In this document: piece after piece, positions 25,987 through 39,790 of the stretch
Layout of the letters: every line of letters starts with the position of its first letter
Position numbering within the stretch: the stretch's first letter is position 1
DNA from: Corynebacterium jeikeium
Lineage (GTDB): Bacteria > Actinomycetota > Actinomycetes > Mycobacteriales > Mycobacteriaceae
Assembly: GCF_028609885.1 (NCBI RefSeq)
Contig: NZ_CP063195.1
Span: 310,001-374,000 of the forward strand
DNA: 64,000 nucleotides
Reading direction: 5' to 3'
Made by a program: the position numbers and the translations under genes
The notes under the pieces: model-generated
The model's database searches: none
What the model was told of the DNA's origin: nothing
The model's input: only the letters and a program-made list of their open reading frames with translations

Positions 25987-26013
25987 TACTGACTAGCCAG
26001 CGACCGCTGTTTT

Positions 26014-26062
26014 CGCCCATCGGTTGAAACCCTACGCAGAGGTTCAGCCGGTGGGCGTTCTT
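26014..26062. terminator. Bidirectional terminator between ppk2 and gabD
   Basis: CGCCCATCGGTTGAA and the facing TTCAGCCGGTGGGCG pair over most positions between the convergent genes, followed by TTCTTGTT on the plus strand and preceded by AAAA-complement bases for the other strand. Confidence 0.65.
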
Positions 26063-26070
26063 GTTGCGCG

Positions 26071-27573
26071 CTAGAACGATGTTCCTCGAGGCATGCCGAT
26101 GTAGCGGGTATCCATGTAGTCGTGGATACCCTCTGCTCCGCCCTCGCGGCCCATTCCGGATTGTTTTAGCCCGCCAAACGGTGCAGCTGCGTTGGAAATT
26201 ACTCCTACGTTCAAGCCCATCATGCCGGCCTCGAGGCGGTCATTGAAGTCAAGGGCTAGCGCCATGTTCTGTGTGTACAGGTACGAGGCCAGGCCATATT
26301 CCGTCGAGTTGGCCATGTCTAGTGCCTCTTCTACCGTTCGGAACGTCGTGATGGGTGCGACGGGGCCGAAGATCTCCTCACGATAAACCCGGGCATCTGC
26401 CGGTACATCGATGAGCACGGTCGGCTCGTAGAAGTAGCCTGGCCCATCAACCACCTTGCCACCGCAAAGCACCTTTGCGCCGGACTCGACTGCGTCATCA
26501 ACTAGGGCGGCCACGCGCTCGCGGGCGTCCTTAGAAATCAAGGGACCGCAGGTTGATTCAGGGTCAAGGCCGTTGGCGCATTTCAGTTCCTTGAATCGTG
26601 CGGCGAGCCGCTGGCTGAATTCTGCGGCGAGTGATTCGTGCACCAAGAAACGATTGGCGGCGGTGCAGGCCTCACCCATGTTCCGCATCTTGGCATCAAC
26701 TGCGCCTTGGACGGCAGCATCCAGATCCGCATCCTCGAGCACGATGAAGGGTGCATTCCCACCAAGCTCCATGGAGGTGCGCAAAACGTTATCTGCGGCA
26801 GCTCGCAGGAGGTGGCGGCCAACCTGGGTCGAGCCGGTGAAGGAGATCTTGCGAGTGCGAGGGTCCTGCATGATCGTGTCCGAGACGGCAGGGGCATTCA
26901 GGCTCGGAATGATGTTCACGACACCATCTGGCAAGCCCGCTTCGCACAGTAGTTGTCCCAGGCGCAGGGAAGTCAGCGGGGTAGCTTCAGATGGCTTGAG
27001 GACGGCGGTGCAACCGGCGGCCAACGCAGGGGCGAGCTTGCGGGTGGCCATGGCTAGGGGGAAATTCCAGGGGGTCACCAAGTAAGCGGGGCCGATGGGG
27101 CGGTGGCTGACGATGATACGTAGCTTCCCCTCGGGGCTGTCCGTGTAGTGGCCGTCGAGGTGGGCTGCTTGCTCGGCGAACCAACGGAAGAATTCCGCGC
27201 CGTAAGTCACTTCGGTGTAGGACTCGGAAAGGGGCTTGCCCATTTCCAACGTCATGAGTGTGGCCAGCTCGTCCGCGTGTTCGTGAATGAGGTTGAACGT
27301 GCGCAGCAAGATGTTTGCACGCTGCCGCGCGGGCGTCTCGGCCCAGGCCTGCTGGGCAGTGCAGGCGGCGTCTAGAGCCGCCGCTGCATCTTCCGCTGTG
27401 GCGGATGCAATGGTAGCAATCACGGTGCCGGTCGCGGGGTTTTCCACTTCGAAAGTAGCGCCATTAGACGCGGGCCTTTCTATGCCATCGATGTAAAGAT
27501 TGGTCGAGGTCAGAGCCAGAATTTCTTCGGTGGTTTGGCTGTCATCGCCCATAGGCAGGTCGGTATTTGTCAT
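26071..27573 (-). CDS. gabD: Succinate-semialdehyde dehydrogenase
   Basis: NAD(P)-dependent aldehyde dehydrogenase of the GabD type, oxidising succinate semialdehyde to succinate. The 500 residues have the cofactor and active-site motifs LVTPWNFPLAMATRKLAPAL, FTGSTQVGRHLL, MELGGNAPFIV with the general-base Glu and MGEACTAANRFLVH with the nucleophilic Cys, and a C-terminal PFGGLKQSGMGREGG. The start ATG follows AAGGAG by 11 bases. GABA or 4-hydroxybutyrate genes are not adjacent, so substrate is by family. It borders the low-GC island on its left. Confidence 0.87.
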   Translation of the reverse strand: MTNTDLPMGDDSQTTEEILALTSTNLYIDGIERPASNGATFEVENPATGTVIATIASATAEDAAAALDAACTAQQAWAETPARQRANILLRTFNLIHEHADELATLMTLEMGKPLSESYTEVTYGAEFFRWFAEQAAHLDGHYTDSPEGKLRIIVSHRPIGPAYLVTPWNFPLAMATRKLAPALAAGCTAVLKPSEATPLTSLRLGQLLCEAGLPDGVVNIIPSLNAPAVSDTIMQDPRTRKISFTGSTQVGRHLLRAAADNVLRTSMELGGNAPFIVLEDADLDAAVQGAVDAKMRNMGEACTAANRFLVHESLAAEFSQRLAARFKELKCANGLDPESTCGPLISKDARERVAALVDDAVESGAKVLCGGKVVDGPGYFYEPTVLIDVPADARVYREEIFGPVAPITTFRTVEEALDMANSTEYGLASYLYTQNMALALDFNDRLEAGMMGLNVGVISNAAAPFGGLKQSGMGREGGAEGIHDYMDTRYIGMPRGTSF

Positions 27574-27679
27574 TTTTGCACAACTCCTTAGATGAACTGG
27601 GTAACGCTGTTTGTTTAGTGTTGTCTAGATCACTAGATTCAGCACTATAGCCTGCGCTATTAGTTGAGGAAAGGAAGCG

Positions 27680-28753
27680 ATGATGGCTACAGCAGCAAAC
27701 ATAGCGGAACCTGGAAACCGTGGAAATAAAGCGGACACTTTAGAGGTTTCTACGCCACGGCAAGGCGAGGCTGCACGCCGCGCTCCTCTGGGGCCAGATT
27801 CACTTATGTGGAAGTACGGTGCGGATTCTCGTATTCACCTCCTGCGTGGTTACACGGGAATTCTGCAGAATATGCACCCAGCTATTGGTCAGTCTTTGCT
27901 CGACCACTCGAAGTTCTTTGAGGAGCCGTTCGCACGCCTGGAGCGCTCCACTCCACAGATCATCGAATCCATTTACGTTGACGACGAGGACCCACTGCAG
28001 GAGCGTATTCGCGATTACCACGTAGACATTCAGGGCAAGCTGCGAGATGGGACTCGCTACCACTCGTTGAAGCCAGACACCTTCTGGTGGGCACATGCCA
28101 CCTTCGTCTACCGCGTAATCCGCACCCAGGATTTGTTCGGAAAACCTTTTACTGCCGAAGAGCGCGATCAGATCGTCCGTGAAGGTGTTACGTGGTGGGA
28201 TCGATACAAGATGTCCAACCGACCGGTCATCGACAACTACGACGATCTAGTGACCTATATCGAAGAGATGACTAAGTCGGTGCTTGAGCGCAACGATACG
28301 GTTGACTTTGCTCTACGCACGGCACGAGTCGAGCCGGTGAAGGCTCCTGATGGGGTATCCCCTCGAGTCTGGAAGGTCATCTGGAAGCCGATCATGCGTA
28401 GCCTGGTCTGGTTGACGATCGGAACTCTAGAGCAGTCGCAGCGTGACATCCTGCAAGTCGGCTGGTCCGAAAAGGATGAAAATCGGTTTACTCGCTTGTG
28501 TAACCTCATCCGCAAGATTCACCCGAAGCTGAGTGCTAACGCGCGCTTCATGAACCCAGGCCGTGACTTCATGGATTACCACGGCATGCTTGGTGAGAAG
28601 CGCCAGAAGAAGGCCACTGAACACTGGGACGAGCGGGTTTCCACGGCTACGCGCTCCAAGACCAACCCAAAGGATGAATCTGAGAATTCCGAGCCCTTGG
28701 CTTCGGAAACGATGTCGATCAAGGAGCGCCGGGCGGCAGGTTGCCCGTTCTAA
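27680..28753 (+). CDS. DUF2236 (MpaB/Lcp-type) oxygenase, copy 1
   Basis: The 357 residues belong to DUF2236, the family of the fungal oxygenase MpaB and the rubber oxygenase Lcp, both of which cleave prenyl double bonds. The core motif is IRDYHVDIQGKLRDGTRYHS then WWAHATFVYRV, with the conserved Arg, His and second His expected to lie at the cofactor. No signal peptide or strong membrane helix is seen. It starts at ATG 27680 (27683 also possible) after AGGAAAGGAAG. The aldehyde dehydrogenase gene follows in the same direction, suggesting oxidation of the aldehyde product. Substrate unknown. Confidence 0.8.
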   Translation: MMATAANIAEPGNRGNKADTLEVSTPRQGEAARRAPLGPDSLMWKYGADSRIHLLRGYTGILQNMHPAIGQSLLDHSKFFEEPFARLERSTPQIIESIYVDDEDPLQERIRDYHVDIQGKLRDGTRYHSLKPDTFWWAHATFVYRVIRTQDLFGKPFTAEERDQIVREGVTWWDRYKMSNRPVIDNYDDLVTYIEEMTKSVLERNDTVDFALRTARVEPVKAPDGVSPRVWKVIWKPIMRSLVWLTIGTLEQSQRDILQVGWSEKDENRFTRLCNLIRKIHPKLSANARFMNPGRDFMDYHGMLGEKRQKKATEHWDERVSTATRSKTNPKDESENSEPLASETMSIKERRAAGCPF

Positions 28754-28770
28754 AACAGACAACTTTGTGC

Positions 28771-28800
28771 GACCCGGACGGATCTAACATCCGCCGGGTC
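28771..28800 (+). terminator. GC-rich hairpin between the DUF2236 and aldehyde dehydrogenase genes
   Basis: GACCCGG-a-CGGAT (28771-28783) pairs with ATCCG-CCGGGTC (28789-28800), a 12-bp stem with one bulge. Only CCTTTACG follows, so termination may be partial. Confidence 0.5.
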
Positions 28801-28867
28801 ATGGCCTTTACGTCCATTAAGCGGCGAACAATTTTCTATTTGAACCCATGAAAGTGGAGATTTTCAC

Positions 28868-30448
28868 ATGCATACGCGTTTTCCATTTGGTCCGATTCCG
28901 AAACGGCTTCACGAGAACTTGCTCAATCTGACCACTAACACCAAGGGGCCGGGCGTACACGAGGCCGAACGTCAGGAAATCACCAATACCTTTAGTGGTG
29001 AGGTAATTGGGTCAGTGCTTTTGGGTGCAGAGGAAGATGTTACCCGCGCATTTGATCTTGCTCGTGCTGCTCAAAGGCGCTGGGCGGAGACCCCTTTTTC
29101 TCAGCGGCAGGAGATCTTCCGTGATTTTCACGATCGGGTTTATAAAAACCGCGAGCTGATGATGGATATTGTCCAGATGGAGACTGGAAAGAATCGTCTC
29201 TCTGCGTTGGACGAAGTACTGGATGTGCTGTCGAATGCCAGGTACTACGCCAATAAAATGCCGGATCTAATGTCCGAAAAGAAACGCCCTGGTGCTCTGC
29301 CTGGTTTTACTCGTACCGTTCAGCAACAGGTTCCAAAGGGCGTGGTTGGGCAAATTACTCCATGGAACTACCCATTGGCTCTGGGGGTATCTGACGCTAT
29401 AGCGGCGCTGCTTGCTGGTAATGGTGTGGTTGCAAAGCCAGATTCCAGTACCCCGTTCTCTATGTTGATCGCGGTCTTGTTCCTCTACGAATCGGGGCTC
29501 CCGCGGGACCTCTTCCAGGTTGTTACTGGTTCTGGCCGGATTGTCGGTTCTGCAATTGCCGATCACTGTGATTACTTGATGTTCACCGGATCTACGGCGA
29601 CCGGAAAGATTCTTGGACGCCAGGTTGGTGAGCGCCTCGTAGGCTACTCGGCCGAGCTCGGGGGCAAGAATCCGCTGATTGTTACCAATGACGCCAACCT
29701 CGATGTTGTCGAGCGTGAATTGCCCAGTGCGTGCTTTTCGAACTCCGGGCAACTGTGTGTCTCTATTGAACGCATTTACGTTGAAGAGGGAGTTTACGAC
29801 GAAGTTGTCAGGCGGTTCCAGCGTGCTGTGAGCAAAATGAAGATCGGCGCTGGCGACGCCTGGGATATCGACATGGGGTCTCTCATCAACGAGACGCAGT
29901 TCAATACGGTCAACAAATTCGTGGATGAAGCCCGTGCCGCCGGTGCAAAGGTCTTGTGTGGTGGAAAGCCGCGCCCTGATTTAGGCCCTTACTTCTATGA
30001 ACCGACTGTGCTTGTTGACGTGCCCGAAGGCACGCCTGTGCTCACCGAAGAAGTATTCGGCCCTGTCGTGTTTATTCAAAAGGTCTCTTCCACAGAAGAA
30101 GCTATCCAGAAGGCTAACGACACTTCCTATGGTTTGAACGCATCGGTGTTCGCGGAATCGGGTACGGGAAGAAAGGTTGCTTCGCGTCTCCTAGCTGGCG
30201 GCGTCGGAATCAATGACGGATACGCGGCCACCTGGGCGAGCGTCGCGGTTCCTCTCGGCGGTATGAAGCAGTCCGGTATGGCACGTAGGCACGGCCCAGA
30301 AGGTTTGCTGAAGTACACGGAGACTCGCAACGTGGCTGAACAGCGACTGCTGTCTATGCGTGGGCCTAAGAACGCTCCACGAAAGCTCTACGCCAACCTG
30401 ATGGCGAACGCGCTGCAGATGGGGAAGAAGCTTCGCTTTCTTCCTTAG
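28868..30448 (+). CDS. Aldehyde dehydrogenase family protein
   Basis: The 526 residues contain QITPWNYPLALGVSDAIAAL, FTGSTATGKILG, SAELGGKNPLIVTND with the general-base Glu and FSNSGQLCVSIERIY with the nucleophilic Cys, so it should be active. It is most like the NADP succinate-semialdehyde dehydrogenase branch, with an extended basic C-terminus (about 35 residues after the usual end) that may associate with membrane. Its place between two DUF2236 oxygenase genes suggests it oxidises the aldehydes they release. Codon use is more AT-rich than core genes here. Confidence 0.88.
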   Translation: MHTRFPFGPIPKRLHENLLNLTTNTKGPGVHEAERQEITNTFSGEVIGSVLLGAEEDVTRAFDLARAAQRRWAETPFSQRQEIFRDFHDRVYKNRELMMDIVQMETGKNRLSALDEVLDVLSNARYYANKMPDLMSEKKRPGALPGFTRTVQQQVPKGVVGQITPWNYPLALGVSDAIAALLAGNGVVAKPDSSTPFSMLIAVLFLYESGLPRDLFQVVTGSGRIVGSAIADHCDYLMFTGSTATGKILGRQVGERLVGYSAELGGKNPLIVTNDANLDVVERELPSACFSNSGQLCVSIERIYVEEGVYDEVVRRFQRAVSKMKIGAGDAWDIDMGSLINETQFNTVNKFVDEARAAGAKVLCGGKPRPDLGPYFYEPTVLVDVPEGTPVLTEEVFGPVVFIQKVSSTEEAIQKANDTSYGLNASVFAESGTGRKVASRLLAGGVGINDGYAATWASVAVPLGGMKQSGMARRHGPEGLLKYTETRNVAEQRLLSMRGPKNAPRKLYANLMANALQMGKKLRFLP

Positions 30449-30469
30449 TAACCCACGGGGGTTGGAAAA

Positions 30470-30519
30470 AGCGCCTATTGCGTGACGGGTATGTCGGTAC
30501 CTTTAACGGGATAGGCGCT
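30470..30519. other. Inverted repeat after the aldehyde dehydrogenase gene
   Basis: AGCGCCTAT (30470-30478) and ATAGGCGCT (30511-30519) are perfect reverse complements with a 32-base spacer holding GGTACC. No T-run follows. It may act as a weak terminator or as an mRNA end structure. Confidence 0.4.
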
Positions 30520-30555
30520 CAAGAGTATCTGGGGAAGAAGGAGAGGACGAGAGAA

Positions 30556-30597
30556 GAAAACCCTGTCCCACCTCGGATTTGAGGGGCAGAACAGGGG
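30556..30597 (-). terminator. Terminator of the minus-strand DUF2236 operon
   Basis: On the minus strand CCCTGT...CCCCTC pairs with GAGG...ACAGGG around a short loop, followed by TTTTCTTCTC. It lies just past the stop codon at 30613. Confidence 0.7.
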
Positions 30598-30612
30598 TGG
30601 GGGAACGGCTCT

Positions 30613-31515
30613 TTAGCGGCCAGCGTTAGTGAAGGCACGGTCGGCAATTCCGACCATGCGGAGCTTGCGTGGCAACCGGTTAAAAGTGTGCCGAATGGTG
30701 GTGTACAAGAGCTTGAAACGGCGCTGATCCTTAGCGGTCCATTCCCAGCCAATGACGTTTCGCATATGCTCCGGCATCAGACCGTTGTTCACCCACACAA
30801 GGAACCTCGCTACGTAAGGGGCGAGCGGGCGCCAAATGAAGTTTGGGACAGCCGGGGTGGGCCTAGGGATATCCAATCGGCGAAGAATACGAGAGCGCTC
30901 CACGGTTTCTGTCTTGGACAGCTTTTCTGTGATGTACTCGTTCATGTACGCCTCGTACTCCTTGTAGGAGGTAGGAGCGTCAGCCGGCTCAGCTACACCG
31001 TAGTAGGAGTACCAGGTGCGCGTCTCTTGGAATAGCTGTTCCTTTTCTTCGTCGTTCAGAGGATCCATGAAGGTCCCCGCGAGGGCGAAAGGCATTGCAG
31101 CGAAGGTAGCGTGCGCCCAGTAGTAGTTGTCGGGACTTAGCGAATGCCAGCGAGACCCGTCATCGTGAACTCCCTTTACGTCATGGTGGTAGTCACGAAT
31201 CATGTGTCCAACTTCTTCGCCTTCATACACCGTGCGGATGATCGGAAATGCTGACCGGATTAGGCGGGCAACCTCGTTGTCGAAGAAGTTCGATTGGCGA
31301 ACAAGTGCGGTACTGATGTCACGTTGGGTCGCTTGGAAGGTAGCGGCATAAAGCGCTACGAACATCGAACGCCAGTCACCAAAACGCTGCCACAGGATAG
31401 AGTCCGGTCCGAGCGGGGGAAGATCTTTAGGGGCGGTGTCCGGGTTGGGAAGAAACTCCGGATTGATCTTCGAGTGGGATTGAATGTTGTTGGAGTGGGA
31501 CTGCTTAATGGTCAT
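30613..31515 (-). CDS. DUF2236 (MpaB/Lcp-type) oxygenase, copy 2
   Basis: Second DUF2236 protein of the island, 300 residues. Its core, MIRDYHHDVKGVHDDGSRWHSLS then YYWAHATFAAM, keeps the same Arg, His and His positions as copy 1, but overall similarity is moderate, so it is a paralogue and not a recent duplicate. The N-terminus has a short repeated SHSN/SHSK strip and no signal peptide. Last gene of the minus-strand operon DUF6230-DUF6114-FAD-DUF2236, 45 bases after the FAD gene. Two different oxygenases may act on successive or distinct bonds. Confidence 0.78.
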   Translation of the reverse strand: MTIKQSHSNNIQSHSKINPEFLPNPDTAPKDLPPLGPDSILWQRFGDWRSMFVALYAATFQATQRDISTALVRQSNFFDNEVARLIRSAFPIIRTVYEGEEVGHMIRDYHHDVKGVHDDGSRWHSLSPDNYYWAHATFAAMPFALAGTFMDPLNDEEKEQLFQETRTWYSYYGVAEPADAPTSYKEYEAYMNEYITEKLSKTETVERSRILRRLDIPRPTPAVPNFIWRPLAPYVARFLVWVNNGLMPEHMRNVIGWEWTAKDQRRFKLLYTTIRHTFNRLPRKLRMVGIADRAFTNAGR

Positions 31516-31560
31516 TGGTATCTCCTTTGGCTGTGGGGTTGGGGTGTATTCCCGACGGCG

Positions 31561-32388
31561 TTATTTCGCTGGGGCAGTGCGATTGTGTTCCGATGTCTGC
31601 TTCTTCTTCGGTTGCTTTCCCTTGTCCTCAGGGAAAATGAACTCGTGGTTCCCCTGGTTGAAAGCGCCCAAGCTCGCAATGAATGAACGCCAAGTATTGG
31701 GTGTTGCCGTCCACATCGATTTGTTGATGAAGAGAGCTGCCGGGCCGATAACCTCGAGTTGTCGCACATAGTCTTGGCAGTGGTTGGCCTTTGCTTCGAC
31801 CAGGTCTAAGGGGCGGGCGAAGAATCGCGGTTGCGGTGGCTCCGGACCGTCAATGACAAGGATGTTTGGAACACCAATTGGTTCCACCCCAAGGTGATGA
31901 TGTGTGTCGTTCAAATCAATGTCGTAACCTTTGCCGGTCGTTACATTCTCGATAGTGCCGGTGCCGTTGGCTACGATGACGACGTCCGCTGTGTAGGTTT
32001 GGCCTTCATCGTCTTTTACGTTCCACTGGGAATCAGAGTTGTCGAAGGCGATTGCCGTAATGCGTGTGTTCAAGTACACCGTGTAATCGCCGTCAGTGAG
32101 CGCCGCAGCGATGTGCTGACAAGCTTCTTCGGCGTTTGGGTTCCGAACCTTGGTATGACGGAGATTGTTCTTTCGGAACCCGAAACCGCGCGGTGGAGTG
32201 GCTGGGTGTGACCCAGCGTAACGCCCGCCGAGCCTGTCCTTCTCGTCGAACAGAAGCACCTTAAATCCAATGAGCGCGCATTCTGCAGCTGCGGCGACTC
32301 CAGCTGCGCCTCCGCCAACGACAGCGACGGTAGGGAGGCGATAGGTACTCTTGCCGTTTGGGGCATTTCCAAAGTTGTATTTTTCCAT
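31561..32388 (-). CDS. Short FAD/NAD(P)-binding oxidoreductase-like protein
   Basis: The N-terminus carries a dinucleotide fold: VAVVGGGAAGVAAAAECALIG, then DEKDRLGGRYAG, and a later ADVVIVANGTG, as in flavoprotein monooxygenases and amine oxidases. At 275 residues it is well short of those families (usually 400-500), and I see no second GxGxxG for NADPH. It may be a minimal FAD protein working with the oxygenases next to it, or a shortened Baeyer-Villiger-type enzyme. The C-terminus is Lys/Gln-rich. It sits 40 bases after the DUF6114 gene and 45 before DUF2236 copy 2. Confidence 0.72.
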   Translation of the reverse strand: MEKYNFGNAPNGKSTYRLPTVAVVGGGAAGVAAAAECALIGFKVLLFDEKDRLGGRYAGSHPATPPRGFGFRKNNLRHTKVRNPNAEEACQHIAAALTDGDYTVYLNTRITAIAFDNSDSQWNVKDDEGQTYTADVVIVANGTGTIENVTTGKGYDIDLNDTHHHLGVEPIGVPNILVIDGPEPPQPRFFARPLDLVEAKANHCQDYVRQLEVIGPAALFINKSMWTATPNTWRSFIASLGAFNQGNHEFIFPEDKGKQPKKKQTSEHNRTAPAK

Positions 32389-32428
32389 AGTCCCAGTTCC
32401 TTTCTAGGAAATCGATTTTCTGTCTTTC

Positions 32429-33727
32429 TTATTGGAAGGCGCGTAGGGAAACTTTCGGCGCTTCAAGGCGTTGGGCTCGCACCCCGTAGGCATCCATCTT
32501 CACGTCTCGTAGGGAGACGAACTGGAGAACCTCGTCAGGAACTAGTGCTTTAGTGAAGCCAAGTCGTTCTAACTGTGGGATCGCGTCTCGTAGGTTTCCC
32601 TGGGCGTCGATGGTTACGGGAATAGTTGGTACACCAGCAACCGTTGGCGTGGCCGTCAGCGCGCGAGTTCTAATGACTACAGGGTCGCCTTGGAGAATGG
32701 ACCTTTTTCCTGGCGAAGAACTCAAAGTTGCCAATTGCTGGCCTTCGCCGAAATCGAGCTTGATGTTATTAACGACTACGGAGTTACCACTCAACTCGAT
32801 CATGTTTTCTGGACCAGTAGGAGTCTGGACGGAAATGAACTTCACCTGTACATTGCCGTTGATGGTCACTTCATCAGCGGTGACCGGCTGAGTTCTGCCT
32901 GCCAGTGCCACGTTATTCAGCTCCGATCGCGCTTTTGTGACGAGTGGTGCCTTGGCTGTTGGAGTTTTAGGTGCCGACGGAGTATGCCGAGGCGGCGCTG
33001 GCGTGGAAAGCTCGGGCTGGGAAGCCTTCGAGGGCATGGTAGGGGGGACTGGCGGCTCTGGTATCTGAAACGGCGGGCTCGGCAAAGCAGGAAGCGGTGG
33101 CAACGGGGCCGCCTCAGCGGCTGAGGCCGGACGAGTAGCGACGCCACCAATGCTGGCCGCCACTGTGAAGACGAGAACGAGAATAGCGGTGGTACAGCGT
33201 GCCCCAGCACTATCGTCAAATGGGGAGGCGGCGTCTTGTGTTTCTACGTCTTGTATGCCGTCTTTTTGGGCTTTCTTCCGGGCTTTCCTGTCCTTTTTCT
33301 CGCGCTTCTTTAGGTTTATTTGTTTCACTCGAGGATGGTCGGCAGACTCCCATCCAAGGGCGGTAGCCCCACCGACAATGGCGAGCAAGGTGCCAATGAT
33401 GAACCCGCCGAAGTTTGAAGCTGGAAGCGCGACAACACCGAAGATGATTGAGAGGACGCCTAAGTAGGGCGCTGTGGCTGGCTTCAACCATGTACCAATC
33501 CCGAACATGATGAGGCAAGCGCCGAGAGTGAGGGTGGATACTCCGGAGATAGTGGAGATAACAACCAGCAGATCAAGAATCTTCAAAGAAAGATATGCCG
33601 GTACAAGGATCACTACTCCGGCGCAGATCATCAGCAGACCAGGGATGAAAGGTCGTTCGGAACGCCAACCTTTGAATTTGGAGGTCTTCTTGGAGGGCTC
33701 GGCTCCAGGATTAGCCTCCGCACTCAT
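32429..33727 (-). CDS. DUF6114-type membrane protein with long exported C-terminal region
   Basis: Residues about 25-130 hold four hydrophobic helices (FIPGLLMICAGVVILVPAYL, LDLLVVISTISGV, YLGVLSIIFGVVALP, FGGFIIGTLLAIVGG), resembling DUF6114. A highly basic cytosolic loop (KKREKKDRKARKKAQKDG) follows, then a further helix (TAILVLVFTVAASIGG), a Pro/Ala-rich spacer (about 205-262) and a predicted beta-rich domain to residue 432. Start overlaps the DUF6230 gene by 17 bases. Function unknown; the Pro-rich arm suggests reach across the cell wall. Confidence 0.7.
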   Translation of the reverse strand: MSAEANPGAEPSKKTSKFKGWRSERPFIPGLLMICAGVVILVPAYLSLKILDLLVVISTISGVSTLTLGACLIMFGIGTWLKPATAPYLGVLSIIFGVVALPASNFGGFIIGTLLAIVGGATALGWESADHPRVKQINLKKREKKDRKARKKAQKDGIQDVETQDAASPFDDSAGARCTTAILVLVFTVAASIGGVATRPASAAEAAPLPPLPALPSPPFQIPEPPVPPTMPSKASQPELSTPAPPRHTPSAPKTPTAKAPLVTKARSELNNVALAGRTQPVTADEVTINGNVQVKFISVQTPTGPENMIELSGNSVVVNNIKLDFGEGQQLATLSSSPGKRSILQGDPVVIRTRALTATPTVAGVPTIPVTIDAQGNLRDAIPQLERLGFTKALVPDEVLQFVSLRDVKMDAYGVRAQRLEAPKVSLRAFQ

Positions 33728-34298
33728 TGTGTTCTCCTTCCTTCACGTCGGCGTGCAGATTTTTCACTGAAAGCTTGCTTGCAGAAACGGAAGTTGCGGT
33801 GATGTGCTCAGCTTGGATGCTGGTGGACTTCGTAACGAGTCCCCACGCGCCGGATGGAGCGGCTGGATTAGCTTTGTGTACATCTGCCCCGAGAACGACA
33901 TCGTCCACAGCCAGATCTGCGTCGAGGTCCTTCGCGCCTACCACGAGATGCTTGGCATCTACGGTATTTTGACCCGGTGATTTTAGAGTGAAAGTGATCG
34001 GGCCAATCTTTGGCACATTGCCAACCTTGGCGGAAATGCAAAGATCGGAGGCTTTGGCTGTATCGAAGGTAAGTCGAGCGACCGCCTCTTCCTTTTTGTC
34101 CTCTCCCATATTTTCTTTATCAACAAACAAGTTGAAATCCTTACCCTGGACATCGCCGATTGCAATGTCGAAAAGGGTTCCGGAGAGTGCAAGGTTGGCG
34201 GAGACTCCTCCTTGGGCTAGTGCGACACCAGCGCCGGCGCTAGCCACCAGCCCGACTGCTAGCGCGATGGATGTTTTCCATGGGTTAATCCGACCCAT
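33711..34298 (-). CDS. DUF6230-like exported protein
   Basis: A 195-residue protein with an N-terminal signal or anchor (TSIALAVGLVASAGAGVALAQ) and then a repetitive beta-type pattern (ANLALSGTLFDIAIGDVQGKDF to SIQAEHITATSVSASKLSV). In streptomycetes DUF6230 and DUF6114 genes are neighbours, as here; no function is known to me. A single Cys occurs mid-protein and one near the end. GGAGGAG precedes the ATG. First gene of the minus-strand operon, divergent from the PucR-type regulator. Confidence 0.72.
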   Translation of the reverse strand: MGRINPWKTSIALAVGLVASAGAGVALAQGGVSANLALSGTLFDIAIGDVQGKDFNLFVDKENMGEDKKEEAVARLTFDTAKASDLCISAKVGNVPKIGPITFTLKSPGQNTVDAKHLVVGAKDLDADLAVDDVVLGADVHKANPAAPSGAWGLVTKSTSIQAEHITATSVSASKLSVKNLHADVKEGEHNECGG

Positions 34299-34383
34299 TC
34301 GTCTCCTCCTCTGATTGTGACATATAGGTCCAGGGCTTCACCGACTGCTGAAATGCGTTTTTGCTGCAATCGGTTTTGCAACG

Positions 34384-34399
34384 CTCATCCCGGGATGAG
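34384..34399. promoter_or_regulatory. 16-bp perfect palindrome in the divergent DUF6230/PucR promoter region
   Basis: CTCATCCCGGGATGAG is fully symmetric and lies about 85 bases upstream of the DUF6230 start and 172 upstream of the regulator start. It is a strong candidate operator for the divergent PucR-type regulator. Confidence 0.55.
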
Positions 34400-34413
34400 A
34401 GCTGTATCACACA

Positions 34414-34484
34414 CGATTTTGGCTTATGCTACATACATAGCTGACCAGTTCGAAGCTGGTTATGGCGATTTTGGCTAAAATGCT
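34414..34484. promoter_or_regulatory. Direct repeats flanking a second inverted repeat, same promoter region
   Basis: CGATTTTGGCT occurs at 34414-34424 and 34466-34476, 52 bases apart, each followed within 2-4 bases by ATGCT or AATGCT. Between them ACCAG (34444-34448), TTCGAA and CTGGT (34456-34460) form a near-palindrome. The spacing of about five helical turns would allow cooperative or looped binding. Confidence 0.45.
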
Positions 34485-34571
34485 TTAGTTCAGTCCGGTT
34501 TTCGGCCGGAATGGCTAATGGGTGGGCTGGTTAGATTGAGTACACCCAGGAACTACTACAAAGGTGCCGGA

Positions 34572-35864
34572 ATGGACGAGTTGATAAGGAAGCGGTTCGC
34601 TCAAGAGCTTGGTCGATCCAGTGAATACTTGGCCGAACGAGTTTATGAGGAAGTAAGTAGGGACCTTCCCGGCCTCGTAAACCCCGCTTTCGAGGAGGCT
34701 TTTCGGGCAAGCTCACTGACCAACGTCGCCTTATTTAGCGAATATGTCTTAAGCAATGGCGATCGCCGCACCGTGCGGGTGGGGCAGACCTTGCGCAATC
34801 TCGTTAGAGATTTTGTCGTGCGCGGACGTACCTTGTCCGCACTTTTGATGTTGTTTCATCGAGGGCACAACGCTTTGGAATCCGGGCTTTTGAACGTCCT
34901 GAATCGCATAATCTCAGACTTGGATACCCCCGACGTTATCCAAACTGTTGCGGATCTGCGGTTACTATCTAACGGCTACGCGGCTCTACGTACTGATCAG
35001 TTGGCTGCGATGTTTGCGGAGGAAAGTTCGCGTCTGCAAGTTCCGGGGGATCCCGGGCTGTTACAGGCAGTGAAGCGTGTACTCAGTGACCAATCGGATC
35101 AAGCGATGGTTGAAGGGATTGGGGACTATGCATTGGATGCACCCCACGTGGCATTCCTAATGTGGAAGACCCAGGGGAGTGCGGATAAAGGTGATGTCCT
35201 TAAAGAAGGCGCCTTAGTCTTGCCCCAACTACTTGGTGCCACGCAACGTCCTCTGATGGTTTTTAACTCAGTAAATACTCTGTGGGGTTGGTTTGCCCCG
35301 CAAGCGTCGCAGCCTGGAGATGCTAAGCAGATCGGCAACGCCAGGGCGCACCCTTCCGGCAAACAAGGCTTCAACCAGGATGGGGCGCTGCAGGGCAAAT
35401 TTCCGGACAACGTCAATATTGCGATTGGCCCCGCGATGTACGGCGTTGAAGGGTTTCGCAAAAGTCACGCCATCGCGAAGAAACTCCGTCGCGTGATGGA
35501 GCTAAGCAATGATGAGCCGGAAGCTCGCCAGCTGATCACCACGGCCATGCCCGGAGCCCTTTCCGCAGCCGCTTTCGTAGATCGACTGCCCGCGGCGCGA
35601 GAAATCGTGGAACTCTCACTCGGAGAGTTAGCCACAGACGACAAAAATTCGGAAACAATCCGCGCTACCGCAAGGATATTTCTTTCGCACAGTATAGCCG
35701 GTACTGCTACAGAATTGTCTGTGCACCGTAACACGGTGAAATACCGCCTCGAGAAGTTCCGTGCAGTCGTGGGTGAGGCGGGGGAAATGGACGCGGATGT
35801 CCGGTTAGCTCTGGAGCTGGCGTATTGGCTGGGCGGAGAGGTTCTCGCCCGCAAAACCCGGTAG
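34572..35864 (+). CDS. PucR/CdaR-type transcriptional regulator
   Basis: The C-terminus (ETIRATARIFLSHSIAGTATELSVHRNTVKYRLEKF) is the PucR helix-turn-helix, in which a long recognition helix follows HRNTVKYRL. The middle region (about 170-310) fits the GGDEF-like domain of the family, and the N-terminal 150 residues are helical and may bind a ligand. The ATG at 34572 gives the natural start (MDELIRKRFAQEL); an upstream in-frame ATG lacks a ribosome-binding site. It is divergent from the DUF6230 operon and the obvious regulator of the island. PucR proteins usually activate in response to a catabolic substrate. Confidence 0.85.
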   Translation: MDELIRKRFAQELGRSSEYLAERVYEEVSRDLPGLVNPAFEEAFRASSLTNVALFSEYVLSNGDRRTVRVGQTLRNLVRDFVVRGRTLSALLMLFHRGHNALESGLLNVLNRIISDLDTPDVIQTVADLRLLSNGYAALRTDQLAAMFAEESSRLQVPGDPGLLQAVKRVLSDQSDQAMVEGIGDYALDAPHVAFLMWKTQGSADKGDVLKEGALVLPQLLGATQRPLMVFNSVNTLWGWFAPQASQPGDAKQIGNARAHPSGKQGFNQDGALQGKFPDNVNIAIGPAMYGVEGFRKSHAIAKKLRRVMELSNDEPEARQLITTAMPGALSAAAFVDRLPAAREIVELSLGELATDDKNSETIRATARIFLSHSIAGTATELSVHRNTVKYRLEKFRAVVGEAGEMDADVRLALELAYWLGGEVLARKTR

Positions 35865-35890
35865 CTCAAGTCGGACACCGGGTTCGCAAA

Positions 35891-38800
35891 CTAACCTTCC
35901 ACGATCTCGATCGGGTTGCCTTGCCACCTTGTCGCGGCTGGAACATGGTCGCCGCGCATTACTAGTGACGCCGGGCCGACTGTCGCCGCCTGTTCGATCG
36001 CTGCGGCGGGCAGGGCCACGCTGTGGGGGCCCATCGTCGCGCCGTCACCCAGGGTGACGGTATCCAGGCTCATCACGCGGTCCTGGAACAGGTGCGTCTG
36101 CACCACACAACCCGGGCCCACGCTGGCACCCCGGCCAATGCTGACCAGGTCCGCCTCCGGCAGCCAATAGGAATCCAACCAAGCGCCCCGGCCAATCTTC
36201 GCGCCCAGCGCGCGCAAGAACATGTTCAGGCTGCCAGTGCCCATTGTGTGCGCCAGGAACCAGGGGCCGGCCACGGTCTCCACGAACTGATCCTGCAGTT
36301 CGTTGAGCCACACGAAGGCCGACCATAATTCGTGCTCGCCCGGCTTGATGCGCTGCACGCACAGCCACTTCATCAGTACCGTCACCGCCGCAGCCACGAA
36401 CCCAGCGCCGACCAGAACCAGGCCGGAAACCGCGAAGGTCTGCCAGATGCCCTGGTTTACCAGCATCCACTGCAGCGCCAGTACCACACCTGCGGCAATC
36501 GCGGCGGAGGTCATCGGGGCGAGCAAGCGGAGGGTCTCTACGATGCCGCGGGCCACCTTCAGGCCGAAGCCCGGGTTGTAGGTACGGGACTCGCCGCCGG
36601 CCTCCACAGCCACGCGGCGCAGGCGCTCCGGTGGGGAGCCTAGCCAGTTGCTGCCGGACTTCGTTTTCTCTGGGGTGGAGGAGAGCACGGCCACCAGAGA
36701 GTTCTTCTTAAGTGTGCGATCCGGACCGGCGATACCGGAGTTACCGAGGAAGGAACGCTTACCCACCTTCGTGTTACCGGTAAGCATCCAGCCGCCACCG
36801 CCGAGCTCGTAGCCGCCGACCATCGTGTCGTCTGCCAGGAACGCGCCCTCGCGCACCTCGGCGAAGCGCGGCACCATCACCGCCGTGGAGATTTCCGCAT
36901 CCTTGCCTACCTTTGCCCCCAGACTGCGGAACCACAGCGGGGTGAGCTGTGCCGCGTACATCGGGAACAGTTGAGTACGGGCGCTATCCATCAGGCGCTC
37001 GACAGCCCAGACGCGCCAGCCGCTGAGGCTGCGCACAGCCACCACTCCCGGTTTCAGACCTGCGGACAGCAGACGAACGGACAGCCACGTCAGTGCTGCG
37101 TATGTTGCGAATGCCACCAGGCCACCGACTGCGGCGATGGGAAGTGCTAGCAAGGGGGCGTCAACAGGAACGAGCCACAGCACAAACGCCGCAGCGACGA
37201 ACAGAGCCACTAGGGGCAGGAACGACATCGCGATGGCACTCAGTGCGTAGAGCCAGAACCACATGGTACGGCGCGGTGCGGCCTGCTGCGGGAAACGATT
37301 GCGGGCCTTGCCGACCTTCACCGCAGGCGAGCCCGCCCACTGGGAACCGGCCTTGACTTTCTTGGCTCCCGTGACGGCCGAACCGGGCTCGATGTGAGCG
37401 CGGGCGCCGATGCGGGCACCGGGGAACAGGGTGGAGCGGGCGCCGACGGAGGCATCCTTGCCGACCTCGATGCGCCCGACATGCAGCACGTCGCCCTCCA
37501 GCCAGTAGCCGGAAAGATCCACCTCCTGCTCGATGGAGCAGTGCTTGCCCAGAGTGAGCAGGCCAGTGACGGGCGGCAGGGTGTGCATCTGCGCGCCCTT
37601 GCCGACCTTCGCGCCCAGCCAACGGGCATAGGTGGTGATCCACGCGGCACCGGAGACATCGCGCGCGCCGGAGGAATCCGCCACGCGCTCCGCAGCCCAA
37701 ATGCGCAGGTGAACAGAGCCGCCGCGCTTATAGTCGCCCTCGCTGATACCCGCCGTAATCAGGCGGATCAACAGCGCGGACAGTGGCAGGCGGCCCAGCG
37801 GGGTGGCGAAGACGATCACCGCGGCGATGACCACGGCCCAAGGCACGTCGACCACCCACGGCAGGTCGCCTGCCCACGAGGAACCGTGGAACAGGATCGC
37901 GTTGAACACCAGGATCCAGGTGACCCACTGCGCGCCCGCGAGGGTGAGCGCCGGAACCTGGATCAGGGCTTGCGCAAGGCGGGTGCCGATGCCCACCGGC
38001 TTGGCGGGCTTGACGTCCTTGGCCTGTGCGGCCTGGCCGGAGCCCGTGCCGCCGGTCTTTTCGCGCAGAGAGTCGATGTGCTCGGCCAGTGCACCCAGGC
38101 GGGAGTGATCGTAGAGATCACGCACGCTGACGGTCGGAACCTCTTGGCGCACGCGGCTGATCAACGTAGCAGCGCCCAGGGAGGTGCCGCCGAGGTTGAA
38201 GAAATCCGCATCCGGGCTGGTCACTGCCGTACCGAGCGCGTCGGCGAACAGCCCCGCCAACCACTGCTGGGTCGGGTTGTCGAACTCCGCGTGGCCGCTG
38301 GAAGGCAGCGGCCACGGCAGGGCCTTCTTGTCCACTTTGCCGGAGGTTGTTACCGGCAACTCGTCCAGCGCGCACAGGCGCGGAACCATGGCAGCGGGCA
38401 TTGAGTCGCGCAGCTGGTCCAGCGCTTGCTGCTGGTCGAAATCCTCGACGCTACCCTCGGTGGAGACGTAACCTACCAGCACCTTGTCCCCGCCGCCGGT
38501 GGTCTGCACCACGACGGTGGAGCTGCGCACTCCGGGGAGGGCGGACAGCGCGGCGTCTACCTCGCCGAGTTCGATTCGACGCCCACCGATCTTCACCTGG
38601 TCGTCGATACGACCGACGAAGTACAGGCCGTCTTCCTCGAGGCGCACATGGTCACCAGAACGGTAGGCGCGCTCCCAGCCGAGCTCCGGCATAGGCGCGA
38701 ACTTCTCCGCATCCTTCTCTGGATCCAGGTAGCGGGCCAGGCCGACGCCACCGATGATCAGCTCGCCGGTCTCGCCCCAGCTCACCGGCTGGTTGTTTTC

Positions 38801-39790
38801 GTTAACGACTGCCAGATCCCAGCCACGCAGGGGAGTGCCAATTGAAACCGGGCGAACCCCATCCATGGTGGTACCGCAGGCCACGACGGTGGCCTCGGTA
38901 GGACCGTAGGTGTTCCACAGCTCGCGGGAATCGGTAGCCAGGCGGGCAGCTAGCTCTGGCGGGCAGGCCTCGCCGCCGAAGATCAGCAGACGCACGGCAT
39001 CCAGGGCCTCATCGGGCCAGAGACCGGCCAGGGTCGGCACAGTGGAAACTGCCGTGACGCTGCGGGAAACCAGCCAAGGCCCTAGGTCCACGCCGGAGCG
39101 CACCAGGGCGCGCGGGGCGGGCACTAGGCAGGCGCCGTGGCGCCAAGCCAGCCACATCTCCTCACAGGAAGCGTCGAAGGCCACGGACAGGCCGGCCAGC
39201 ACGCGGTCACCCGGAGCCAGTGGTTCCTCCTGCAGGAACATCTCTGCCTCCGCGTCCACGAAGGCAGCCGCGTTGCGGTGGGTGACCGCCACGCCCTTCG
39301 GCTTGCCGGTGGAACCGGAGGTGAAAATGATCCACGCATCAGTTTCCAAGTCCGGGCCGAACGATTTAGTGGCGGCTGCCCCAGTATCTGCCTGCAGCTT
39401 TTCGTCGACCAGCTGCAGCCCGTCGGCGCCGTAAATTGCGGCCACGTTCGCCTCGCCGAAGACGAGGGAAGCTCGTTCTTCGGGGTCGTCGGCGTCAACA
39501 GGTACATAGGCAGCACCGACGGCCAAGGTGGACAGAATAGCGATGTAGAGTGAGCGATCGCCGCTGGGCATGCGAATGCCGATGCGGTCGCCGCGCCCGA
39601 GGCCACGGCTATGCAGCCACTCGGCGGTTTCGTCGATCTCGTCGAGCAGCTCGGAATAAGTAATAACCCCCTTGCCGTCGTCGATGGCGGGGGCTTCAGG
39701 GCACGTCGAAGCCGTCGCACGCACAATATCGATGAGCGTGCGAGGCTCCGGTGCCTCGTGGGAGCGGAGGTACCGGGAAGGAATCTGCAC
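35891..39790 (-). CDS. Single-module NRPS-like membrane synthetase (A-T-membrane-LbH; Pls-like)
   Basis: Of 1299 residues, about 1-500 are an adenylation domain (IIFTSGSTGKPKGVAVTH, NTYGPTEATV, YRSGDHVRL, GGRRIELGEVDAAL, PVTTSGKVDKKALP) and about 505-580 a carrier domain with the phosphopantetheine serine in FFNLGGTSLGAATLI. The rest alternates membrane helices with left-handed beta-helix acyltransferase-like repeats (GKDASVGARSTLFPGARIGA and similar). This layout is that of epsilon-poly-lysine synthetase-like proteins, which polymerise one amino acid without a condensation domain. No thioesterase is present. GTG start 7 bases after the MarR stop, so the two are probably co-transcribed. Amino-acid substrate cannot be read by eye. 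Confidence 0.85.
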   Translation of the reverse strand: MQIPSRYLRSHEAPEPRTLIDIVRATASTCPEAPAIDDGKGVITYSELLDEIDETAEWLHSRGLGRGDRIGIRMPSGDRSLYIAILSTLAVGAAYVPVDADDPEERASLVFGEANVAAIYGADGLQLVDEKLQADTGAAATKSFGPDLETDAWIIFTSGSTGKPKGVAVTHRNAAAFVDAEAEMFLQEEPLAPGDRVLAGLSVAFDASCEEMWLAWRHGACLVPAPRALVRSGVDLGPWLVSRSVTAVSTVPTLAGLWPDEALDAVRLLIFGGEACPPELAARLATDSRELWNTYGPTEATVVACGTTMDGVRPVSIGTPLRGWDLAVVNENNQPVSWGETGELIIGGVGLARYLDPEKDAEKFAPMPELGWERAYRSGDHVRLEEDGLYFVGRIDDQVKIGGRRIELGEVDAALSALPGVRSSTVVVQTTGGGDKVLVGYVSTEGSVEDFDQQQALDQLRDSMPAAMVPRLCALDELPVTTSGKVDKKALPWPLPSSGHAEFDNPTQQWLAGLFADALGTAVTSPDADFFNLGGTSLGAATLISRVRQEVPTVSVRDLYDHSRLGALAEHIDSLREKTGGTGSGQAAQAKDVKPAKPVGIGTRLAQALIQVPALTLAGAQWVTWILVFNAILFHGSSWAGDLPWVVDVPWAVVIAAVIVFATPLGRLPLSALLIRLITAGISEGDYKRGGSVHLRIWAAERVADSSGARDVSGAAWITTYARWLGAKVGKGAQMHTLPPVTGLLTLGKHCSIEQEVDLSGYWLEGDVLHVGRIEVGKDASVGARSTLFPGARIGARAHIEPGSAVTGAKKVKAGSQWAGSPAVKVGKARNRFPQQAAPRRTMWFWLYALSAIAMSFLPLVALFVAAAFVLWLVPVDAPLLALPIAAVGGLVAFATYAALTWLSVRLLSAGLKPGVVAVRSLSGWRVWAVERLMDSARTQLFPMYAAQLTPLWFRSLGAKVGKDAEISTAVMVPRFAEVREGAFLADDTMVGGYELGGGGWMLTGNTKVGKRSFLGNSGIAGPDRTLKKNSLVAVLSSTPEKTKSGSNWLGSPPERLRRVAVEAGGESRTYNPGFGLKVARGIVETLRLLAPMTSAAIAAGVVLALQWMLVNQGIWQTFAVSGLVLVGAGFVAAAVTVLMKWLCVQRIKPGEHELWSAFVWLNELQDQFVETVAGPWFLAHTMGTGSLNMFLRALGAKIGRGAWLDSYWLPEADLVSIGRGASVGPGCVVQTHLFQDRVMSLDTVTLGDGATMGPHSVALPAAAIEQAATVGPASLVMRGDHVPAATRWQGNPIEIVEG

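Follow-up and report, generated by a model that had tools for sequence, protein, structure and literature searches.

A candidate oxidative gene cluster joining predicted DUF2236 haem oxygenases to a compact flavoprotein and a DUF6230–DUF6114 pair in Corynebacterium

Introduction

Do the genes of a G+C-poor block in a Corynebacterium genome, among them two candidate haem oxygenases of the MpaB/Lcp type, act together, and if so, on what compound? Alkene-cleaving haem oxygenases of this type are a recent discovery and, to our knowledge, few of them have a known biological setting. The block gives one candidate of this kind a genomic setting that is conserved across some members of a common genus. 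A description of the cluster was not found among the titles and abstract openings listed by searches of open-licence papers. The original prediction, made for a 64-kb window (the whole stretch of DNA analysed), was an accessory oxidative island, and here we follow it up computationally.

Results

The seven genes with named domains, in two facing groups with a divergent gap, were all confirmed (Table 1). The predicted span, 27574–35880, is real, but its left edge was drawn too short, as the segment absent from relatives runs from 25989 to 35890. The low G+C content relative to the flanks likewise held: the four 60-base counts quoted for it (29, 33, 31 and 47) were reproduced exactly, and the G+C of 27574–35880 is 0.542, against a minimum of 0.611 among 92 overlapping windows of the same size taken from the rest of the 64-kb window, with both flanks joined end to end. 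Mean GC3 was 0.608 for the eight block genes and 0.792 for 23 hand-picked flank genes (Mann–Whitney p 2.5e-7). The codon-use distance of the block genes was 0.117, versus at most 0.061 across 2000 random eight-gene draws from the same 23 genes; the block thus deviates in codon use from the flank genes, and the codon profile identical to core genes that would have spoken against an island was not found. The left aldehyde dehydrogenase gene, with a G+C of 0.602, lies above the other seven block genes.

Table 1. Features of the block (positions in the window).
Feature	Position	Strand	Details
Whole block	25989..35890	.	9,902 bp, eight genes; between PPK2 gene and AMP-binding/PCP/hexapeptide gene
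Aldehyde dehydrogenase, succinate-semialdehyde-dehydrogenase-like	26071..27573	-	500 aa; Pfam Aldedh 554 bits
Divergent spacer, left aldehyde dehydrogenase/DUF2236-1	27574..27679	.	sequence
DUF2236-1, MpaB/Lcp-type haem oxygenase candidate	27680..28753	+	357 aa; PF09995 E 4.5e-48
GabD2-type aldehyde dehydrogenase (ALDH)	28868..30448	+	526 aa; NF006916 748 bits, cut-off 521
DUF2236-2, MpaB/Lcp-type haem oxygenase candidate	30613..31515	-	300 aa; PF09995 E 1.5e-51
Compact flavoprotein, one FAD Rossmann motif	31561..32388	-	275 aa; Pfam Rossmann families
DUF6114 protein	32429..33727	-	432 aa; PF19609 E 3.4e-27
DUF6230 protein	33711..34298	-	195 aa; PF19741 E 6.1e-24
Divergent control region DUF6230/PucR	34299..34517	.	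16-bp perfect palindrome CTCATCCCGGGATGAG at 34384-34399
PucR-type transcriptional regulator	34518..35864	+	448 aa; HTH_30 and GGDEF_2 over cut-off

Of 200 sampled relatives, the five nearest lack the block and have its flanking genes only 0–90 bp apart; the block was therefore likely acquired horizontally. The alternative is that these five relatives lost the block rather than that this genome gained it. Two marks of a genomic island, the short spacer in near relatives and deviant composition, are present. The border mark (an integrase, transposase or tRNA) is absent: no integrase or transposase was found among the eight block genes, the PPK2 gene or the right-hand neighbour, and no tRNA in the 64-kb window.

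Both DUF2236 proteins are predicted to be haem b oxygenases. They score 165 and 176 bits against PF09995 (MPAB_Lcp_cat, DUF2236; cut-off 23) and, contrary to the possibility that both had lost their cofactor residues, each retains the haem-ligand histidine and the arginine of the active site. H198, the proximal haem histidine of LcpK30, and R164 correspond to H110 and R84 of DUF2236-2 and to H114 and R86 of DUF2236-1; the histidine is invariant in 13/13 sequences, and the R164 register was set by reading the R-x-x-K-T motif by eye in protein L208, which, judged by its motifs alone, appears to be an Lcp. DUF2236-2 also has R87, S88 and R107, and DUF2236-1 has R89, S90 and a C-terminal GCPF. In both proteins the distal lysine of Lcp (Lys167) is replaced by arginine and Thr168 by serine; according to PMC5522427, Lys167 is conserved in only 59% of Lcps.

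The predicted fold of DUF2236-2 is an Lcp-like globin fold, and its best matches were two solved C=C-cleaving enzymes, Lcp (in two states) and trans-anethole oxygenase (TAO). Foldseek ranked Lcp top (E 0.13, probability 0.97, and E 0.51, probability 0.96), with no match to the DUF2236-2 model at E <0.001. The TAO class was reportedly described by Purwani et al. 2024 (cited in PMC12724181). Neither Lcp nor TAO was retrieved when the PDB was searched by sequence using DUF2236-2, the DUF2236-2 profile or another DUF2236 protein (L190); the TAO structure 8s1j, which reportedly comes from that work, was left unmatched by DUF2236-2 in the profile search at E values up to 10.

DUF2236-2 shares its predicted fold, the proximal histidine and the active-site arginine with Lcp (LcpK30; 5o1l/5o1m), and an aldehyde dehydrogenase follow-up step, known for Lcp in Nocardia, would be a further likeness to the block. 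An Lcp paired with a flavoprotein of its own is not known to us. LcpK30 works outside the cell, on polyisoprene (PMC5522427), whereas the block proteins, of 300 and 357 aa, lack a hydrophobic leader; hydropathy gave neither of them a hydrophobic signal or membrane segment, and export of the Lcp type is not indicated. Like the block proteins, the MpaB-family TAO of P. putida (348 aa) and the nitrile rubber oxygenase Nro1 (323 aa) are small DUF2236-type proteins, and Nro1 is reported to have a b-type haem spectrum and to give aldehyde/ketone products; unlike for the block, neither a partner flavoprotein nor an envelope module is mentioned for them in the available part of the source (PMC12724181).

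The compact flavoprotein has its FAD Rossmann motif, GxGxxG, at residue 25. Residues ~1–145 match enzymes of class B, namely cyclohexanone and phenylacetone monooxygenases, with E 2e-7 to 3e-6 and an hhalign probability of 96%, the CHMO match (E 2.1e-7) covering profile positions 13–142; the likeness to these flavin monooxygenases (FMO/Baeyer-Villiger) lies in the FAD-binding N-terminal half of the compact flavoprotein. Class B monooxygenases are known to require a second domain, which binds NADPH. Their fingerprint, which we take to be FxGxxxHxxx(W/D), occurred in 3/3 full-length comparators and in 0/14 compact flavoproteins. A second GxGxxx stretch was seen in only two of the 14, near the C-end, and in none at the class B position. 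The compact proteins measure 252–302 aa, against 537–648 aa for three class B comparators. By sequence, the flavoprotein resembles the FAD domain of class B monooxygenases and is itself devoid of the NADPH domain.

Conserved co-occurrence in other genomes, on which the original prediction depended, was found within the genus. DUF2236-2 is present in 18 of 201 Corynebacterium genomes (this genome counted), and in each of them DUF6230, DUF6114 and the flavoprotein lie no more than 10 kb away. DUF2236-1 is also present in 17 of the 18, and the GabD2-type aldehyde dehydrogenase is absent from the locus in two. A strong flavoprotein match was obtained in 18/201 genomes, exactly the DUF2236-2 set, so that the flavoprotein adjoins the oxygenase in every genome with a strong match to either. 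Gene order and orientation vary among these genomes, the cluster occupies more than one chromosomal setting, and in one genome (G151) the set is decaying. Among the best 80 of 586 DUF2236-2 matches in named genomes, ten were in Corynebacterium, all with the six-gene set; several of these are the same genomes as in the 201-genome sample. A DUF6230 scan of the named genomes gave no match, and a plasmid search returned seven records, all below 60% identity. The sequence of this genome forms a long branch in both trees.

The co-occurrence across Actinobacteria that had been proposed was not found. Two scans located DUF6230 in 67 distinct genomes outside Corynebacterium (49 and 20, with two in common), of which 40 were hand-picked to give one locus each, of 15.8–19.5 kb. 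A custom profile found DUF6114 at 40/40 of these loci; that for DUF6230 found 36/40, missing L220, L221, L235 and L241, though Pfam placed DUF6230 there. Neither a DUF2236 gene nor the compact flavoprotein occurred at any of the 40: three weak flavoprotein-profile matches were ORFs of 537–648 aa, and the two that were scanned were both FMO-like. Clustering of the neighbouring ORFs gave no hint of function. Conversely, neither DUF6230 nor DUF6114 occurred at 70 non-Corynebacterium DUF2236 loci within the best 80 of 586 matches, and the three flavoprotein-profile matches there were all long ORFs (494–580 aa). We therefore rejected a link between DUF2236 and DUF6230/DUF6114 across Actinobacteria; since none of the 40 outside loci has a DUF2236 neighbour, such an association appears, at the loci examined, to be confined to Corynebacterium.

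The DUF6230–DUF6114 pair itself is a general actinobacterial module, made up in other Actinomycetes of the same two neighbouring genes. In the block the two genes overlap by 17 bp, and both profiles score over cut-off. DUF6114 has an N-terminal membrane bundle, a further hydrophobic helix (173–200), a Pro-rich linker and a C-terminal domain; this extra domain is part of one protein here and a separate gene in several relatives. DUF6230 has a single N-terminal hydrophobic segment and is predicted to be all-beta (model pLDDT 70); a fold search with its model gave no match. Because the pair is a general module, the proposed binding or import of lipid by it is a guess, and since DUF6230 is found in 75/201 Corynebacterium genomes and DUF2236-2 in only 18, the pair need not serve the pathway.

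The palindrome CTCATCCCGGGATGAG was considered as a PucR operator and dropped, as it is absent from the counterpart regions of all four relatives compared (C. pelargi, MSK297, G015 and C. terpenotabidum). The spacer at 27574–27679 and its C. pelargi counterpart have overlapping 11-mers in common, 13 bases in total.

The left aldehyde dehydrogenase scores 549 bits against TIGR01780, below the 646 cut-off, and C. pelargi has the same gene in the same place, 64% identical. The GabD2-type enzyme lies far above the cut-off for GabD2-type succinic semialdehyde dehydrogenase (NF006916), retains the catalytic motifs (ELGG at 263, GQLC at 294) and adjoins the oxygenase; a second copy elsewhere in the genome is 56% identical. 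Its family, named after succinic semialdehyde, is present in 150/201 Corynebacterium genomes and is thus not specific to the oxygenases.

Discussion

We lean towards an acquired catabolic island, in which two predicted haem oxygenases would cut a hydrophobic compound at a C=C bond and aldehyde dehydrogenases would oxidize the products; the substrate is probably an isoprenoid or unsaturated lipid. Both DUF2236 proteins would bind haem b and cleave the double bond into carbonyl fragments, which the linked aldehyde dehydrogenases would convert to acids. The two oxygenases might take successive double bonds in sequence, or act on different substrates. The flavoprotein may give electrons or reduced flavin to DUF2236-2, DUF6230 and DUF6114 may form an envelope complex that handles the hydrophobic substrate, and the PucR-type protein may turn on the DUF6230–DUF6114–flavoprotein–DUF2236-2 run when substrate is present.

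The substrates might instead be isoprenoids of the cell itself, from its envelope or its quinones (a menaquinone side chain, a polyprenyl carrier or a carotenoid), which the oxygenases would remodel as an adaptation and not for catabolism, with DUF6230/DUF6114 located in the envelope. Lacking a hydrophobic signal or membrane segment, both DUF2236 proteins would meet an intracellular substrate, and the general occurrence of the DUF6230–DUF6114 pair (40/40 loci) also suits such a role. However, a set so patchy (18/201) and decaying in G151 is unlike a housekeeping envelope function, and a PucR-type regulator with aldehyde dehydrogenases would fit inducible catabolism; we regard remodelling as unlikely. 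An aromatic alkene of the phenylpropene type, as for TAO, would yield aromatic aldehydes for both aldehyde dehydrogenases to oxidize, but the block holds no aromatic-ring gene and a phenylpropene supply is not obvious for a host-associated species, which makes this substrate a still poorer prospect.

It is very unlikely that the flavoprotein is a Baeyer-Villiger-type oxidizer of the cleavage ketone rather than an electron donor: its N-terminal match to class B monooxygenases is what such an enzyme would have, but the fingerprint is missing in 14/14 and the second Rossmann motif from its class B position. Equally hard to credit is a loose neighbourhood, in which unrelated oxygenases lie by chance near an old GabD2 gene and the general DUF6230/DUF6114 pair. 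The aldehyde dehydrogenase and the pair are each widespread without DUF2236, and genomes differ in the order and orientation of the genes; yet wherever DUF2236-2 occurs (18/18 genomes), DUF6230, DUF6114 and the flavoprotein are no more than 10 kb away, in more than one chromosomal setting, and genes that stay together through relocation argue for a joint function.

Two questions become open to testing: the reductant of these haem enzymes, and the genes behind squalene cleavage in C. terpenotabidum, a species reported to cleave squalene to geranylacetone. A more specific version, which we hold only as an outside chance, is a new kind of C=C-cleaving system, an MpaB-type haem oxygenase that depends on its own stripped flavoprotein, a class B FAD domain from which the NADPH domain would have been lost, and harvests squalene or other isoprenoids through a DUF6114–DUF6230 conduit; if true, that system would supply the genes for this cleavage. 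C. terpenotabidum has the four-gene core (DUF2236-2, flavoprotein, DUF6114 and DUF6230). It also has a third, different DUF2236 protein, which could equally well be the squalene cleaver.

Layout and origin of the block

Where its nearest relatives have a short spacer, the window carries 9,902 bp of DNA that begins 2 bases past the PPK2 stop codon. The original observation of lower GC than in the flanks was borne out; G+C and GC3 are 0.553 and 0.608 in the block genes, versus 0.638 and 0.792 in 23 flank genes.

Layout of the window and the block (window row in genome coordinates, other rows in window coordinates)
Feature	Coordinates	Strand	Remark
Window	310001-374000		single-contig genome, 2,524,840 bp
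Block	25989-35890		eight genes
Left aldehyde dehydrogenase gene		-	block
DUF2236-1 + GabD2-type aldehyde dehydrogenase (ALDH)	27680-28753 (DUF2236-1)	+	block
DUF6230-DUF6114-flavoprotein-DUF2236-2 four-gene run	31561-32388 (flavoprotein); 30613-31515 (DUF2236-2)	-	gaps -17, 40, 45 bp
PucR-type gene		+	divergent from DUF6230

We ranked relatedness by FtsH identity in a sample of 201 genomes, the window's own and 200 drawn from Corynebacterium (FtsH match in 199 of the 201). The five nearest (G078, G125, G126, G075 and G133) were 93-98% identical, the next 81%. The block's two flanking genes, PPK2 and AMP-binding/PCP/hexapeptide, adjoin each other in every one of the five, separated by 88, 90, 89 and 89 bp, respectively, in the first four and touching in G133; they lie ~170 bp apart in a more distant relative (G010). 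PF09995, the DUF2236 family, had no match in these five genomes, and matched in 40 of the 201. The simplest reading is that the block was gained by the window's lineage, while its loss from the five nearest relatives could also have left them with the empty site.

C. pelargi (G007) carries the same eight genes in identical order and orientation, at 38-76% identity, which is too low for C. pelargi itself to be the donor. In the tree, the window DUF2236-1, on a long branch, forms a group (support 100/99) with its counterparts in C. pelargi, MSK297 (G109), G151 and G015, and the loci of all four include a PucR gene. In G151 (L096 1406-5293) the cluster adjoins a 58% homologue of the window's AMP-binding/PCP/hexapeptide gene (window 35891-39790), which lies at the DUF2236-1 end of the cluster there and at the PucR end in the window; homologous flanks were possibly a transfer route.

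Occurrence in Corynebacterium

Across the 201 genomes, matches were found to DUF6230 in 75, to ALDH in 150 (E up to 1e-120) and to the flavoprotein profile in 19 (E up to 1e-10), one of them weak (G172, 42 bits). Loci were fetched, and their genes typed by best blastp match, for every genome with PF09995 above 160 bits plus the decayed G151; 13 further genomes had weaker PF09995 matches only. DUF2236-2 was thus typed in 18 genomes (G000, 6, 7, 15, 25, 38, 49, 69, 73, 103, 104, 109, 127, 151, 152, 158, 177 and 195). The predicted co-occurrence of the genes held within Corynebacterium, where the flavoprotein, DUF6114 and DUF6230 lie within 10 kb of DUF2236-2 in 18/18 genomes, but not outside it, where the DUF6230-DUF6114 pair is general and was oxygenase-free in the 40 loci examined. 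DUF2236-1 is at the DUF2236-2 locus in 17/18 genomes (interrupted by a stop in G015; the C. terpenotabidum, G127, copy is elsewhere, at 94548), ALDH in 16/18 and the PucR gene in 6/18.

Six genomes (G009, 16, 59, 77, 129 and 189) have DUF2236-1 without DUF2236-2; of these, five lack any DUF6230 match and only a broken copy is present in the sixth, G077 (77% complete). Neither DUF2236-2 nor the flavoprotein was found in this incomplete G077 genome (L091). In G151 (L096) the flavoprotein, DUF2236-2, DUF6230 and PucR genes are split or stop-bearing. The cluster is decaying in both genomes. Strong PF09995 matches in G154, G165 and G174 belong to other DUF2236 types (23-31% identity).

The cluster occupies more than one chromosomal place. 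It adjoins pnp in at least seven loci, several also with dapA, thyX or dapB, and stands beside ABC transporter genes in the group made up of C. kefirresidentii, L083, L090 and L107; in the last three, genes for an Fe-S protein and a Na+/H+ exchanger border its opposite side. At the ABC-transporter-side place, DUF6230 and DUF6114 alone remain in L072-L074 and L081. An AMP-dependent ligase, DUF3556, a CrtI/CrtO-like flavoprotein and a PucR gene adjoin the core in C. terpenotabidum (L095 8614-14702).

Candidate oxygenases, flavoprotein and DUF6230-DUF6114 pair

An R-x-x-[KR]-[TS] motif precedes the His by 26-28 residues in 22/22 DUF2236-1 and 16/16 DUF2236-2 proteins, in a register read from the pattern. 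The row for latex clearing protein (Lcp, L208) is shifted at R164 in the alignment, and we set the register by eye from this shared pattern, an approach that a passage of the nitrile rubber oxygenase (Nro1) report also describes for R68/K71/R72 (PMC12724181). The fold comparison covers a haem-free model of DUF2236-2, for which Foldseek E-values were weak (0.13 and 0.51), and the VIA comparison was confined to structures in Foldseek's list. DUF2236-1 ends in G-C-P-x in 17/22 genus sequences (window 28742-28753), and another DUF2236 type (L190, L191) begins with MSCP. P0064, on a 2,069-bp contig, joins a DUF2236-2-type N-half to a C-half with a DUF2236-1-like end, and is either a natural recombinant or an assembly error.

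The flavoprotein gene immediately precedes DUF2236-2 in the same orientation, at most 45 bp away or overlapping, in 17/17 undecayed genomes (the distance values 78 and 140 are overlaps due to an early start codon). One stop falls within the flavoprotein-matched stretch in G025, G038, G109 and G158, where open frames are still 252-264 aa. Over residues 1 to ~145 the flavoprotein matches class B monooxygenases in their FAD domain, and an N-terminal GxGxxG is present in 14/14 flavoproteins; the C-terminal half gave only a 20-residue match to class B proteins, which was not significant. Unlike class B monooxygenases, the flavoprotein is 252-302 aa, about half their length, and the fingerprint found in 3/3 full-length comparators occurs in 0/14 flavoproteins. 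We infer that it may donate electrons to the predicted haem oxygenase, a role that would fit the need for flavin and NAD(P)H reported for trans-anethole oxygenase in a passage of PMC3774712.

By analogy, an isoprenoid is a candidate substrate of the DUF2236 proteins. It is favoured because Lcp and MpaB act on prenyl double bonds, according to passages of PMC5522427 and PMC12724181, and because the core occurs in C. terpenotabidum. The link between the core and squalene is not firm, since it is based on a single species, which also has another, third DUF2236 protein. If an internal double bond of squalene were cleaved, geranylacetone would be the expected ketone-side product.

DUF6230 and DUF6114 both contain hydrophobic segments, which suggests that they are membrane-anchored or exported; at a guess, they might form a lipid conduit. 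The window DUF6114 extends through a Pro-rich linker into an additional C-terminal domain, which is encoded by a separate gene in several relatives. The window's genome (G000:C1) has three DUF6230 loci (165465-165917, 343720-344184 and 2469868-2470326), each with DUF6114; at the first, separate genes encode the membrane part of DUF6114 and its C-terminal domain. In a Nocardioidaceae MAG (L149 9946-12423), a DUF2236 gene lies ~90 bp ahead of a GabD2-like ALDH gene, their products being 38% and 44% identical to those of the window.
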